NCBI GenBank assembly: GCA_024648695.1
Contig: JACAVV010000035.1
Span: forward strand, 1 to 46,742
From: Nitrospina sp.
GTDB lineage: Bacteria; Nitrospinota; Nitrospinia; Nitrospinales; JACRGP01
Length of the DNA stretch: 46,742 nucleotides
Reading direction: 5' to 3'
This document shows, piece after piece, positions 14,581 through 23,742 of this stretch; within the stretch, counting starts at the first letter, position 1, and each line of letters starts with the position of its first letter. Made by a program: the position numbers and the translations under genes. The notes under the pieces are model-generated. The model saw nothing but the letters and a program-made list of their open reading frames with translations. It searched no databases and was not told the origin of the DNA.

Positions 14581-15000
14581 ATGCGGCAAGAAACTTATGA
14601 AATCCAAACCCGCACGCAGGGCCGGAAACTATATAACATCAACCATGAGATCGTTTCCTGGGTTCACAAACAGGGTATGACCACTGGCGTACTGACCGTT
14701 TTCATTTCCCACACTTCCGCTTCGCTCACTATTCAGGAAAATGCCGATCCCGATGTCCTGCGCGATCTGGATGCGTTTTTTTCACGTATGGTCCCGGACG
14801 GCGATCCCCAATACTTGCATTCCGCTGAGGGACCAGATGACATGCCGGCCCATATCCGGTCTGCGCTTACACAAACGCAATTAAGTATTCCGCTGGTCCG
14901 GGGTCAACTTGCTTTGGGAACCTGGCAGGACATATATTTGTTCGAGCACCGCACCCATCCTCACACACGTCGAGTGGTTCTGCATTTATTGGGGGAATAA
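14581..15000 (+). CDS. YjbQ family protein (UPF0047)
   Basis: This is a compact protein of 139 residues in the family sometimes annotated as secondary thiamine-phosphate synthase. The signature is visible: TVFISHTSASLTIQENADPDV at residues 39-59, YLHSAEGPDDMPAHIRS in the middle, and GTWQDIYLFEHR near the end, with the conserved Thr-Ser, Glu, His and Trp residues. It has standard length and an ATG start. No other thiamine synthesis gene is nearby, so a thiamine role rests on family assignment only. Confidence 0.92.
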   Translation: MRQETYEIQTRTQGRKLYNINHEIVSWVHKQGMTTGVLTVFISHTSASLTIQENADPDVLRDLDAFFSRMVPDGDPQYLHSAEGPDDMPAHIRSALTQTQLSIPLVRGQLALGTWQDIYLFEHRTHPHTRRVVLHLLGE

Positions 15001-15117: not shown

Positions 15118-15432
15118 ATGGACTCCTTCAATTTAAGCGGTTTGATACTTTCGCTGGCGGTAGTGCTTGCGTGTATATTAAAGCAGGTGGCGCACTACGT
15201 TTCGAATTTGAAAGGCCCTAAACGCATTCATAATCTGATTCTGGAAACGGTGGACACGCGCGGTAATTTGAAAATGGTTGAGATTGATCCCAAAAACTTC
15301 GAAGAGGTTGAGCTTCTGGGTACCTGTTTAAATGAAAAGAAGAATCAACCCGAGATGAAAGTCTTCCTGGGTTCTATGGATGTAGACACGCCCACCAAAC
15401 AACACATTTCGGTTTATTCTGTCAATGTCTAG
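15118..15432 (+). CDS. Small membrane-anchored protein of unknown function
   Basis: I do not recognise this 104-residue protein with confidence. Residues about 5-27 form one hydrophobic helix. A basic stretch follows, then a predicted beta-hairpin (LILETVDTRGN and then LKMVEIDPKN) and a second short beta-rich part ending HISVYSVNV. The layout of membrane helix plus a short beta unit recalls, by eye only, the small constant component EACC1 described in bacterial conflict systems. The start has no clear ribosome binding site. Its last 8 bases overlap the start of the next gene, indicating translational coupling. Confidence 0.65.
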   Translation: MDSFNLSGLILSLAVVLACILKQVAHYVSNLKGPKRIHNLILETVDTRGNLKMVEIDPKNFEEVELLGTCLNEKKNQPEMKVFLGSMDVDTPTKQHISVYSVNV

Positions 15433-15838
15433 GAAACCGGGTAAAAGGCCATCTGGGACTGCAGGGCTGGCAGGCATTGGAACCGGGACTGCCCTTGTCT
15501 TTTATGCAAATACCCTTACCGAACAAACCGCGCTGAAGCAGTTTCTGGTTATCATTGCACCGGCGGTCTCTGTCGGGGTTTGTTTTATCTGGTCATGGTG
15601 CCAGAATTACTTTTGGGAAAAACGCACCGTTAGAATAATTTACAAGTCACTTCAGGAGTGCAGGAAAACTCTGGAAAACACATTGAAAAACCCCCAGTCT
15701 TCAGATCGCTATAAAGCCCAGGTTCGTCAAACCAGAGATTTGCTGAAGAGTATAAAAATCGATGTTCACGAGCCCGAACCCGAGAGCTCTCCCACACCTG
15801 AAGAGTCCCAACCAAACGTAGATTCATCGAAAAATTAG
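15425..15838 (+). CDS. Two-helix membrane protein of unknown function
   Basis: The 137-residue product has a hydrophobic segment at about residues 14-30 and a second at 40-63, the latter with the pattern APAVSVGVCFIWSW. A cytoplasmic, charged, probably helical part (residues 64-110, including ECRKTLENTLKNPQSSDRYK) and an acidic, Pro/Ser-rich tail follow. From memory, the AP-SV membrane helix followed by a Leu-rich segment with an NP-S-R motif occurs in small membrane partners of predicted bacterial effector systems; this needs a profile search. It overlaps the previous gene by 8 bases and ends 9 bases before the receiver-TPR gene, so the three form one unit. Confidence 0.65.
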   Translation: MSRKPGKRPSGTAGLAGIGTGTALVFYANTLTEQTALKQFLVIIAPAVSVGVCFIWSWCQNYFWEKRTVRIIYKSLQECRKTLENTLKNPQSSDRYKAQVRQTRDLLKSIKIDVHEPEPESSPTPEESQPNVDSSKN

Positions 15839-15847
15839 ACTGTAAAC

Positions 15848-17164
15848 ATGCCTGGATCCAATCCCTCCAAAGGAGAAAAAAAACATAAGGTTGTGGTCAT
15901 CGACGATGATCAATCGGCTCTCAAAATGGTTAGCAACGCTGTGGAAAAGGCGGGGTATCAATGTTTAACCGCCACCAACGGGAAGGAAGGCGCCCAGCAG
16001 TTTAAAGCCCACCGTCCGATTTCCCTGGTGATTTGCGATCAGGTAATGCCGAAAATCACGGGCATAGAATTGTTAAGCAGAATCAAGCAGGCGTCGCCGC
16101 AGACCATTCGGGTGCTGATCACTTCTACTGAGGAATCGGAAGTGGTGCAAAACGCGGTCAATAAAGGTGAGGTGTTTCGTTTCATCAAAAAACCGGCTGA
16201 TGTGGAGGAGATTAAAAAGGTTGTTCAGGCCGGCATTGAAGAATACGAAAAAAACCTGAAGACGAAAAAAATGCTCGCCGAAGCCGAAGGCCAAACCGTC
16301 CTGGTGAAAAAGTTTAAAGGCATTGCTGTGGTTTTGGGGGGCGTTGTTTTATTGTTGGCGGTATCTTTTGGGTATTTCAGTTGGCAATCGGGTCATGAAG
16401 AGGAGCCCGTTTCCGTTCATGAAGAAGAATTGCAGGTAGAGGGTTTGGCCGCAAACCCCAAGTGGCAGGAATTGCAAACGTTAATCTCCAACAGGCAATA
16501 CGAAGACGCCCTGGCTTTGCTTGCGGAGTTCGATCCCCTGTTGCCCGAAGTTATGAATACCCATGCCCTGGTGTATTTAAAAATGAACCGCTCTCCGGAT
16601 GCAGAAACCTGGGCTAAGGAATCGTTGAAAACTGATCCGCATCAAGGCATCCCGTATGCGGTTTTAGGAAGGGTCTACTTTTTAAGTGGTCGCTTTGACG
16701 AAGCCATGGACACTTCACGTCAAGCCATTCTTTATGATCCGAAATTGCCCATAGCTTACCGCACCATCGGAGAAGTCTATTTGCGTCGCAATCGGGTGAA
16801 AGATGCGTTGAAGGTTTTGCAGGAGTCGGATCGCCTGGAACCGGGCAATTCCGATGTATTAAATGTGATCAGTTCGACTTACGTAAGGAACAAGGATTTC
16901 GAAAATGCTCGCGATGCCGCATTAAAGGCTTTGAAAATCAATCCTGATCATCCGGGCGCGAATTTCAATCTGGCGATCATTTATTTCAATCTGGGGGAAG
17001 GGGAAAAAGCCATGACGCACAACCAGAAAGCTGAGGATCTTTTTCTGGAACTGGAAGAAACCCATTGGCTCGGCAAAGCCCGCCACAATAAAAAGCTGAT
17101 CATGAAAAAATTCAACATCGAAGAACCACCTCCTCCCGAAATATCCGCCGAGTCTCCTGAATAA
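15848..17164 (+). CDS. Membrane-spanning response regulator: receiver domain, one TM helix, TPR repeats
   Basis: Residues 13-125 are a receiver domain: the acidic cluster D19-D21, the phospho-acceptor D64 (VICDQVMP), T92 and K114-K115 before P116 are all in place. A linker rich in Lys/Glu leads to a strongly hydrophobic segment at about 156-177. The part after it (roughly 195-420) is built of tetratricopeptide repeats, for example IPYAVLGRVYFLSGRFDEAM and ANFNLAIIYFNLGEGEKAM, and ends in a proline-rich tail. By the positive-inside rule the receiver is cytoplasmic and the TPRs are periplasmic. No histidine kinase is adjacent and there is no DNA-binding output. The gene follows two small membrane protein genes by 9 bases. 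Confidence 0.85.
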   Translation: MPGSNPSKGEKKHKVVVIDDDQSALKMVSNAVEKAGYQCLTATNGKEGAQQFKAHRPISLVICDQVMPKITGIELLSRIKQASPQTIRVLITSTEESEVVQNAVNKGEVFRFIKKPADVEEIKKVVQAGIEEYEKNLKTKKMLAEAEGQTVLVKKFKGIAVVLGGVVLLLAVSFGYFSWQSGHEEEPVSVHEEELQVEGLAANPKWQELQTLISNRQYEDALALLAEFDPLLPEVMNTHALVYLKMNRSPDAETWAKESLKTDPHQGIPYAVLGRVYFLSGRFDEAMDTSRQAILYDPKLPIAYRTIGEVYLRRNRVKDALKVLQESDRLEPGNSDVLNVISSTYVRNKDFENARDAALKALKINPDHPGANFNLAIIYFNLGEGEKAMTHNQKAEDLFLELEETHWLGKARHNKKLIMKKFNIEEPPPPEISAESPE

Positions 17165-17903: not shown

Positions 17904-19220
17904 ATGACAAGCGAAATCAATTCACCAAAAAAAAAGGATGGGTTGGCTAATGAATATTCGGAAATTTCTAAAATTCCACTTGTCCGGGAGTTCGAAGAAT
18001 CGCTCCGGGACGCCCAGATTCTTCTGGCGTATACATGTAGAAATGGTCTGGTAGTGCCGGATGAGGTCATAGAGACCCTGACTCTGGCAAAGGCTTTGGT
18101 CGATTCAGATAAGCTGACCGTGCAGGATGAAGCTCGATTTTGGAAGGCGTATTCTATTTTATCCAATTTGGCTTTGCCAGTTTCGGTTGAAAGCTTAAAG
18201 GCAACCAAGGGAAGTCTGGTTACTTATAAAAGTGTATTTACCGGAAAAGACAAAAAAAGATGGGAATCCCCTGCCAAAGATGCTGTAAAAAAATACAAAA
18301 GGCTGACGATTTGCGTCTTCCTTTTCGTCCTGGTGACCCAGATTTACTGGTTTGTCGGAACCACCGCATTGAACGATTTTGAATACATTGCTCAACAATC
18401 CAACGAAATTGAACTGGAACTGAACAATCGCAATTCAATTCGAATCAAGAGAGGGGAAGTCAGGGCGTATCAAGCACTGCCCCAGGATGAGGCAAAAACG
18501 GTTCGGTTGAAAAAACTTCAGGAAGACCTGAAAGTCCTGGAGTTGAGGGCCAATAAAAAGTTTGCCGACTCCTATTCCGTAGACCTTGAAAGCAAATTGA
18601 AAAATTTGAATAATTCCTGGGACACGAATAATGAAATTCTTGAAAGGTGGAGCAAGTTATGGAAAATTGTCGTCGCCATTCCTTTATCTGTACTGGAATG
18701 GTTTGATCCTGACAACGACGAGGATCTGAGACTTGAAGACTCAATCCAGGCGGAAGTAAGCCCAGTAATTAAAAAATTGATTTCCGTAAATTCGGGTAAT
18801 TTTGTTCTCTACGCTATTCAAAGTTACCTTTTGCCTTTACTTTACGGTTGGTTAGGGGCGTTGATTTTTGTATTGAGAACTCTGCCTCATGAAATCACGG
18901 AACTGACCTTTTCGGAAAAATCCAAAACTATTTATTCCTTGAGGCTTTATCTCGGGGCGTTGGCCGGCCTGGCCATCATTTTATTTCCTTCCGATCCAAA
19001 CCATACGGTAATTTCTCCGGAATATTCCGGTATAGGTTTGCCCAATCCGTCGCAAAACGCAGAAGGAGCTTCGGGACAGAATGGAGTGGTGTCCACCAAT
19101 AGTTTGTCTCCACTCGCCCTGGCATTTCTGGCAGGCTATAGCGTTGAGTTGCTGTTCACGGCCATGGATAAATTTGTCTACGCGTTCACTGGCGAGGGAA
19201 AAAAGTCCAAGGAGAAATAA
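17904..19220 (+). CDS. Multi-pass membrane protein with central coiled coil, unknown function
   Basis: The 438-residue protein starts with a cytoplasmic helical part of about 130 residues. Membrane segments are visible at roughly 133-155, 300-327 (PLLYGWLGALIFVLRTL), 347-363 and 402-425. Between the first and second lies a charged, heptad-like stretch (about 160-215, including VRLKKLQEDLKVLELRANKKF) that could form a periplasmic coiled coil. The LYGWLGA...LR pattern followed by LRLYLGALAGL recurs in uncharacterised bacterial membrane proteins that I have seen, but no function is known to me. GGGGG precedes the ATG. It is probably in one unit with the exported-protein gene before it. Confidence 0.75.
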   Translation: MTSEINSPKKKDGLANEYSEISKIPLVREFEESLRDAQILLAYTCRNGLVVPDEVIETLTLAKALVDSDKLTVQDEARFWKAYSILSNLALPVSVESLKATKGSLVTYKSVFTGKDKKRWESPAKDAVKKYKRLTICVFLFVLVTQIYWFVGTTALNDFEYIAQQSNEIELELNNRNSIRIKRGEVRAYQALPQDEAKTVRLKKLQEDLKVLELRANKKFADSYSVDLESKLKNLNNSWDTNNEILERWSKLWKIVVAIPLSVLEWFDPDNDEDLRLEDSIQAEVSPVIKKLISVNSGNFVLYAIQSYLLPLLYGWLGALIFVLRTLPHEITELTFSEKSKTIYSLRLYLGALAGLAIILFPSDPNHTVISPEYSGIGLPNPSQNAEGASGQNGVVSTNSLSPLALAFLAGYSVELLFTAMDKFVYAFTGEGKKSKEK

Positions 19221-22209: not shown

Positions 22210-23742
22210 ATGGAGGTGCGATTTGATCGCATGGCGATCATTGGCGTTGGTTTGCTAGGGGGATCTCTTGGCAAGGCTTGTATTGAAAAGGGATTGGTAA
22301 AGCGGATTGTGGGGTTTGGCAGAACAGAGATCAAACTCAAAATGGCTGTCGCATTGGGAGCGGTTCAAGAGTATTCGCTGGACTTGAAAAGCGCGGTGAA
22401 AGATGCGGACCTGGTGGTGTTGTGCACGCCGGTACTCAGTTTTGGCGACTTGATGGAACGCATGAAACCGCATTTGAAACCGGGATGTATTCTCACCGAC
22501 GTGGGTTCGGTAAAAGGTCAGGTCATAAAAGATGTGTCGGCGCATTTGCCGGACGGCGTTCACTTCGTACCGTCACACCCCATCGCAGGTGGGGACCAGA
22601 CGGGGGTGGAACATTCGTCTGCCGGGTTGTTCTGCAACCGCCATTGTATTGTGACGCCTGTGGAATCAAACGACCCTCAGGTTCAGGAACGTGTGGTCTC
22701 GCTTTGGGAATCAGTGGACGGACGTGTGACGGTGATGACGCCTGAAGAACACGACCGGATTTTTTCCGGAGTCAGCCACCTGCCTCATGTTGCCGCGTTT
22801 GCTTTGGTGAATTTGATTGGCGAAATGAAATCGAATGGTGTGACCATCGATACGTTTGCCGGGCAGGGCTATATGGATTCCACCCGCATTGCCAAAGGCG
22901 ATCCGGCGATGTGGAGCGACATTTGTTTGGCCAATCGTGATGAGGTGTTAAAAGGAATCGATGGACTGCAAATGCATTTGAATCAGATGCGGTCCCTGAT
23001 CGAAAACAATAATGGCGCCGAATTGCAAAAAGAGATTCGTAAGGCTCAGCAACAAAGGGAGTCGCTTGAAAGTAAGGTCCATCAACCTATCGTAGCCATA
23101 GATGGTCCGGTGGGAAGCGGCAAAAGTACTTTGGCCAAGGAGTTGGCCAGGCGATTGAATTTGCGCCACATCGAAACCGGGTCCATGTATCGGGCCGTGG
23201 CGTATAACGCCTTGCAGAAGAATATTGATATCGCTGAGGAAGACAAAGTGACGGACATAGCGAAAGCGCTATGCATTGATTTTGTTCCCAGTGATAACGG
23301 GCAGAGGGTGATGGTCAAAGGCAACGATGTCACTCAACTCCTGCGAGAAGAAAAGATCAGTCAGGCGGCATCCCTGGTGGCGAAATACCCTGGGGTGCGT
23401 GCGGTATTGACGGAGAAACAACGGGAAATGGGCCGCACCGGCAATGTGGTCATGGAAGGACGCGATATTGGCACGGTGGTGTTTCCCGACGCAGACAAGA
23501 AATTTTTTATCGACGCCGATCCGGTATTACGGGGTAAACGGCGTTATGAAGAACTGGTCACGAAAGACCCGGGTCTTGATCTGGAAGATGTGATTCATCA
23601 GGTCAGGCAAAGAGATCATGAAGACCGAAATCGTGAGGTGGCTCCGCTGAAGCAGGCGGAGGATGCAATTGCTATCGACACCACCCAATTAACTATTCAG
23701 GATGCCTTGGAAATTTTGGTGCGTTTGATTCAAACCTCCTGA
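22210..23742 (+). CDS. Fused prephenate dehydrogenase and cytidylate kinase
   Basis: One uninterrupted frame of 510 codons encodes two enzymes. Residues 1 to about 290 are TyrA: an NAD-binding GVGLLGGSLG at 12-21, TDVGSVKG, PSHPIAGGDQTG and SHLPHVAAFAL are all present, making 4-hydroxyphenylpyruvate from prephenate. After a charged helical linker (about 270-292, RKAQQQRESLESKVHQ), residues 293-510 are a full cytidylate kinase. They carry the P-loop DGPVGSGKST, RHIETGSMYRAVA, the GRDIGTVVFPDA loop and the KRRYEEL segment. In many proteobacteria tyrA, aroA and cmk are neighbours; here aroA is absent and the two outer genes are joined. The linker shows no stop or internal start with a ribosome binding site. 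It follows pheA by 9 bases and precedes rpsA by 35. Confidence 0.93.
   Translation: MEVRFDRMAIIGVGLLGGSLGKACIEKGLVKRIVGFGRTEIKLKMAVALGAVQEYSLDLKSAVKDADLVVLCTPVLSFGDLMERMKPHLKPGCILTDVGSVKGQVIKDVSAHLPDGVHFVPSHPIAGGDQTGVEHSSAGLFCNRHCIVTPVESNDPQVQERVVSLWESVDGRVTVMTPEEHDRIFSGVSHLPHVAAFALVNLIGEMKSNGVTIDTFAGQGYMDSTRIAKGDPAMWSDICLANRDEVLKGIDGLQMHLNQMRSLIENNNGAELQKEIRKAQQQRESLESKVHQPIVAIDGPVGSGKSTLAKELARRLNLRHIETGSMYRAVAYNALQKNIDIAEEDKVTDIAKALCIDFVPSDNGQRVMVKGNDVTQLLREEKISQAASLVAKYPGVRAVLTEKQREMGRTGNVVMEGRDIGTVVFPDADKKFFIDADPVLRGKRRYEELVTKDPGLDLEDVIHQVRQRDHEDRNREVAPLKQAEDAIAIDTTQLTIQDALEILVRLIQTS

Follow-up and report, generated by a model that had tools for sequence, protein, structure and literature searches.

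A gene in the window, by which we mean the whole 46,742-nucleotide stretch of Nitrospina sp. DNA analysed here, encodes a two-component receiver joined by a single transmembrane (TM) helix to a TPR superhelix predicted to lie outside the cytoplasm. Judged from sequence, the protein appears to be the receiver-bearing member of an exported TPR family, with the receiver placed ahead of its membrane anchor. Two-component systems usually run outside-in: sensing is done by a membrane kinase, and the response is made in the cytoplasm by a soluble regulator. Our best reading of the window protein, to which we give an even chance, is an inside-out response regulator in which the state of the receiver sets the assembly of envelope TPR scaffolds.

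Results

Domain order and predicted structure

The reading frame is intact, starts with ATG and begins 9 bp past the stop of the preceding ORF (Table 1). Its N-terminal part scored 80.3 bits against the Pfam family Response_reg (PF00072, curated cut-off 30.2) and is thus a receiver. Pfam TPR families cover about residues 240-400 (TPR_2, E 2.8e-19). An AlphaFold model was computed from an input alignment of 30 sequences drawn from the genomes retrieved in the analysis. The receiver fold in this model matched PDB 3kcn_A with a TM-score of 0.91 normalised to the target (Foldseek), and the matches for the model comprised TPR superhelices, PilF and MamA included, as well as receivers such as 3kcn. 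The TPR half was modelled as six helix hairpins and a capping helix, with pLDDT mostly 95-99; a reading of the sequence alone that preceded this work (the sequence-only reading) had counted about five TPR units. Mean pLDDT over the whole protein was 89.5, and since pTM was only 0.58 the placement of the receiver relative to the TPR half is not predicted. Residues 181-196, between the long helix and the TPRs, are acidic and of low confidence in the model.

The layout of receiver, TM segment and TPRs proposed in the sequence-only reading was confirmed by the ORF, the Pfam domains and the single hydrophobic segment. That reading had called for a search for this architecture elsewhere; a search for relatives recovered the whole layout in two further genomes, with identity of about 40%, and because of this recurrence we regard it as more than chance. 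Within the window's genome, the window gene alone among 81 receiver ORFs has a convincing TM helix behind an N-terminal receiver; in two further candidates flagged as receiver-TM, the segments belong to a CheB methylesterase and a GAF-GGDEF protein.

Table 1. Features of the receiver-TPR gene and its upstream neighbours (window coordinates).
Feature	Position	Strand	Evidence or remark
YjbQ/UPF0047 gene, in synteny with the TPR gene in the order	14581..15000	+	PF01894 E 1.3e-40; TIGR00149; synteny
Small ORF, 104 aa, one N-terminal hydrophobic helix, no family	15118..15432	+	overlaps next ORF by 8 bp
Small membrane ORF, 137 aa, no family	15425..15838	+	ends 9 bp before receiver-TPR gene
Receiver-TM-TPR protein, 438 aa	15848..17164	+	ORF, Pfam, AlphaFold, full-length orthologues L009, L010
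Receiver domain, residues 15-126	15890..16225	+	PF00072 E 1.5e-22
Acidic pocket D19-D20-D21	15902..15910	+	sequence; invariant in three orthologues
Phospho-acceptor D64 (predicted)	16037..16039	+	alignment A1; Asn in both orthologues L009, L010
T92 switch residue	16121..16123	+	invariant in three orthologues
K115 of K-P motif	16190..16192	+	invariant in three orthologues and in 17/17 receivers of alignment A5
Helix 119-180, unbroken from receiver alpha5 through the linker to the TM segment	16202..16387	+	AlphaFold/DSSP
TM helix core, residues 159-177 (IAVVLGGVVLLLAVSFGYF)	16322..16378	+	hydropathy, flank charges
TPR superhelix, residues 204-422, predicted exported	16457..17113	+	Pfam, AlphaFold, orthologue anchors

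The two small membrane ORFs between 15118 and 15838 may share a transcript with the receiver-TPR gene; no counterparts of either were found in the syntenic loci of relatives. Downstream, a second 438-aa ORF (17904-19220, + strand) matched nothing in Pfam or NCBIfam and contains some four hydrophobic segments. Further along, a single ORF (22210-23742, + strand) encodes a TyrA-Cmk fusion, in which residues 21-276 are prephenate dehydrogenase and residues 295-508 cytidylate kinase; the genes on either side encode a chorismate mutase-prephenate dehydratase and a protein with six S1 domains.

Membrane topology and the exported TPR family

The protein contains one strong hydrophobic segment (19 residues with a Kyte-Doolittle mean of 2.45 and a sum of -1.03 on the insertion scale), flanked by the basic VKKFKG on the N-terminal side and the acidic SGHEEEPVSVHEEE on the C-terminal side, an N-in/C-out pattern. 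The outside location of the TPRs, put forward earlier with a call for topology prediction, is thus predicted from a single TM helix with positive-inside flanks and backed by orthologues that appear to be exported. With the membrane side taken from these two lines, charge bias and exported orthologues, we consider the inside-out topology (receiver in, TPRs out) well supported. TPR proteins are often cytoplasmic, and the topology rests on a hydropathy scan; the hydrophobic stretch could accordingly be a membrane-surface or buried helix in what would be a receiver-TPR adaptor with cytoplasmic TPRs. We hold this to be very improbable in view of the clean, single 19-residue peak, the positive-inside flanks and the lipoprotein signals or N-terminal anchors of the orthologous TPR domains. 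Moreover, the segment was modelled as a lone helix outside both folds, which speaks against burial in a soluble fold, the outcome that the sequence-only reading had named as fatal to its proposal.

A search of 77 genomes of the phylum returned a match at E <= 1e-30 in 35, beyond the window's family mostly to the TPR half alone, and the other families of the order encode orthologous TPR proteins without a receiver. The 30 orthologues in the TPR tree divide into 3 with a receiver, 16 with a lipobox (Cys then Gly; the count includes L039, assigned by eye from LVLFTVSCGG) and 11 with a short tail and TM anchor. In family f4 most TPR proteins have an N-terminal lipoprotein signal whose last residues are ACG or SCG; a short tail and TM helix stand at this place in f3, in f2 and in two genomes of f4. 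Gly after the lipobox Cys would predict sorting to the outer membrane by the E. coli rule. The internal TM helix of the window protein, after the receiver, stands where its relatives have a predicted lipobox or anchor. As the orthologous TPR domains are lipoproteins or signal-anchored, the TPRs of the window protein are predicted to lie outside the cytoplasm as well, and this kinship is the strongest evidence for the predicted inside-out topology.

Family membership is also apparent from a C-terminal W-x-x-K-x-R motif, whose W407, K410 and R412 are nearly invariant in alignment A2 and present in the window protein, and from a conserved placement near yjbQ that the window gene shares. In 9 of 10 loci of the order inspected in detail, yjbQ adjoins or is near the TPR gene. 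It lies upstream on the same strand in the window and in G001, G002, G023, G025, G015, G047 and G064, and nearby in G009 and G008; it was not seen near the TPR gene in the inspected locus of G057. G003 and G004, of the window's family, and G049 possess yjbQ with no close TPR relative beside it, and in G059 a divergent TPR gene lies by yjbQ.

Distribution and probable origin of the fusion

The receiver-TM-TPR protein was present in 3 of 387 genomes sampled from the window's phylum and other phyla, searched by similarity rather than architecture with few candidates scored per genome; G001 and G002, both within the window's family, were the only other genomes with a full-length orthologue. The three receiver-bearing forms group together in both the TPR tree (93/91) and the receiver tree (97/95). 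Since the orthologous TPR proteins elsewhere lack a receiver, bear export signals or anchors and in most loci inspected are encoded near the same yjbQ, the receiver is probably a late addition, made once, in the ancestor of the window gene and its two family orthologues, onto an existing exported TPR protein. A scan of viral contigs found no relatives, and a scan of the GTDB contig collection gave four matches, each to single domains only.

Other membrane-tethered receivers in the order

The design had been called uncommon before; this describes the exact protein but not the design, as the order holds at least three other receiver-TM-exported-domain architectures. Among the nearest non-orthologous relatives of the window receiver in the phylum are hybrid kinases, HD proteins and several more membrane-tethered forms. 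One of the latter, a protein of about 350 aa with a receiver, a coiled coil, a TM helix and an Lcl_C domain (PF07603), is encoded by 19 genomes, which belong to three families of the order (the G057 copy has internal stops and the G019 copy is incomplete); it was not found outside the order in the genomes sampled. Examples are L146:1486-2517, L145, L151, L153, L155, L159, L161, L170, L205 and L209, among others. All 11 sequences aligned in A4 keep the phospho-Asp; L205, L209 and L208 have Glu at this site. With Pfam applied to representative neighbours only, the Lcl_C-type gene in f4 and G001 comes after an HDOD-type gene and a HisKA-HATPase-REC-REC kinase, and in f3 it adjoins a GAF-MshEN-T2SSE ATPase.

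G064 contributes two further kinds. One 607-aa ORF (L043:1922-3745, + strand) contains a receiver (PF00072), a long coiled coil, MotB_plug and OmpA and adjoins a MotA-like ORF (assigned by eye); its product is predicted to be a receiver fused to a stator-type peptidoglycan-binding protein. Two similar receiver-TM-short proteins of 255 and 259 aa (L042:1164-1931 and L044:1558-2337) have a Cys-containing C-terminal part, and both genes sit downstream of a kinase of the PAS-HisKA type (one of the two kinases was checked by Pfam).

The receiver tree implies at least three changes in the tethered state. A single origin of all tethered receivers in the order was rejected with p-AU 0.019, for a group named after the sequences had been seen. 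Membrane tethering thus appears to have arisen more than once within one receiver clade, and the receiver-TM-exported-domain design is a local theme of the order and not a one-off.

The receiver active site and the loss of its phospho-Asp in orthologues

D19-D21, D64, T92 and K115 were each found exactly where the sequence-only reading had put them, so that phospho-Asp, acidic pair, Thr/Ser and Lys are all present in the window receiver. Both full-length orthologues keep the acidic pocket, the Thr and the Lys while D64 is replaced by Asn. The phospho-site is therefore not conserved; phospho-switching is plausible for the window protein, going by its residues, and is not the rule of the receiver-TPR family. 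No kinase gene was found beside the window gene among the window ORFs scanned. Together with the Asn in both orthologues, this weakens the earlier claim that phosphorylation may change protein assembly in the periplasm. In the sister genus, whose receivers lack D64, the next sizeable gene 3' of the receiver-TPR gene encodes a REC-PAS-PAS-HisKA kinase.

Between L009 and L010, dN/dS in the receiver codons is about 0.21, calculated from only three non-synonymous and four synonymous changes, which is suggestive only of constraint persisting in spite of D64N. Between L009:1501-2772 and L010:1504-2775, dS is about 0.05 in the receiver and about 0.21 in the TPR part, i.e. roughly four times lower in the receiver; recombination or constraint at the DNA level are possible readings of these small numbers.

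Loss of the phospho-acceptor in both orthologues, with the fold retained and the codons seemingly constrained, would suit a receiver that acts as a constitutive cytoplasmic docking domain and recruits the envelope TPR protein or sets its position, for instance by a kinase cluster or a secretion ATPase, independently of phosphorylation. The Glu at the phospho-site of some receiver-TM-Lcl_C proteins points the same way. Against docking stand the full active site kept in the window gene, the Asp invariant among the Lcl_C proteins of A4 and the hybrid kinase next door at several of their loci. We consider docking unlikely for the window protein; because D64 has been lost there, it is a serious rival at least in the sister genus. 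With Asn in the orthologues and Glu in the three Lcl_C proteins, phosphorylation is not a uniform requirement.

Receivers without a DNA-binding or enzymatic output can serve as phosphate sinks, and TPRs bind partner proteins. The topology is equally compatible with signalling in the opposite direction, in which the occupancy of the periplasmic TPRs would tune phosphate uptake by the receiver and report envelope assembly inward. The loss of D64 in the orthologues fits a sink poorly there, and we judge this outside-in sensor or sink quite improbable, more so than docking.

Discussion

A possible inside-out regulator

In the inside-out response regulator that we favour, the receiver would lie in the cytoplasm at the membrane face, its alpha5 predicted to continue without a break through the linker and the single TM helix, and the six-TPR superhelix would hang in the periplasm, where the homologues are lipoproteins according to their signal sequences. 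D64 would most likely be phosphorylated by a histidine kinase encoded elsewhere. Phosphorylation would alter self-association or partner binding of the alpha4-beta5-alpha5 face of the receiver, so that the attached TPR domains would approach each other or separate; the assembly of an envelope client would be controlled in this way. A single TM helix cannot easily relay a conformational change unless the protein oligomerises; the coupling might consist of a change of oligomeric state along the alpha5-TM helix. In the sister genus, where the phospho-Asp is Asn, the receiver is probably fixed or a phosphorylation-independent docking module. We infer both mechanism and client of the window protein, and the type IV pilus or a secretion machinery is no more than a lead to the client. 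The parallel fusions in the order and the several Lcl_C loci with an adjacent hybrid kinase support the inside-out regulator.

Taken more broadly, the order may possess a lineage-specific class of inside-out regulators, in which one receiver clade was repeatedly tethered by TM helices to TPR, Lcl_C, MotB-OmpA or short Cys-containing outputs and through which histidine kinases would control the periplasm directly, without transcription. This is a tentative proposal that we rate somewhat below an even chance. If the output of a receiver lay beyond the membrane, phosphotransfer could reach envelope assembly directly, and the parallel receiver fusions point to a little-explored outward route of two-component signals into the cell envelope. 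Several versions exist in one order, one of them by a hybrid kinase at several loci, which opens the idea to testing, and the D-to-N and D-to-E changes found in nature are ready comparisons for the contribution of phosphorylation.

Comparison with known systems

We found no description of a receiver-TM-exported-TPR protein in the open-access literature, a scope that leaves subscription journals largely outside. With canonical response regulators the window protein shares the full receiver (acidic pocket, phospho-Asp, Thr, Lys); it differs in an output that is predicted to lie across the membrane instead of being DNA-binding or enzymatic, and in a phospho-Asp that is not conserved in orthologues. 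The available text of an archaeal survey describes MetOD3-REC-MetOD2, where receiver and membrane-anchored domain occur in one protein; among the other proteins in its list are REC-PAS-TPR and TPR-REC, and it contains no receiver-TM-exported-TPR arrangement (PMC5847659).

PilF/PilW lipoproteins and MamA have a TPR superhelix of similar size (TM-scores normalised to the target of 0.64 for PilF 2ho1 and 0.72-0.74 for MamA 3vty), and the receiver-less orthologues are, like PilF, lipoproteins; neither PilF/PilW nor MamA has a receiver, unlike the window protein. Assignment of the TPR half to either family was rejected, as the window protein and the orthologue L047 scored 49 and 76.8 bits against PilF/PilW (TIGR02521, cut-off 154) and 54.7 and 89.1 bits against MamA (NF040959, cut-off 200).

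The receiver-TM-Lcl_C proteins of the same order have a related receiver, a linker, a TM helix and a predicted exported C-terminal domain, and their receivers group with that of the window protein with weak support (85/67), whereas their output is Lcl_C, their linker a longer coiled coil and their spread wider.

The nearest functional analogue is LapD of Pseudomonas, in which c-di-GMP is the signal passed outward and a periplasmic protease the target under control (PMC3032553). LapD relays an internal signal from a cytoplasmic regulatory domain across the membrane to an output in the periplasm, as the window protein would. The two are alike in function only, Pfam finding neither a GGDEF-EAL module nor the periplasmic domain of LapD in the window protein, which in their stead combines a two-component receiver, one TM helix and a TPR superhelix as output.
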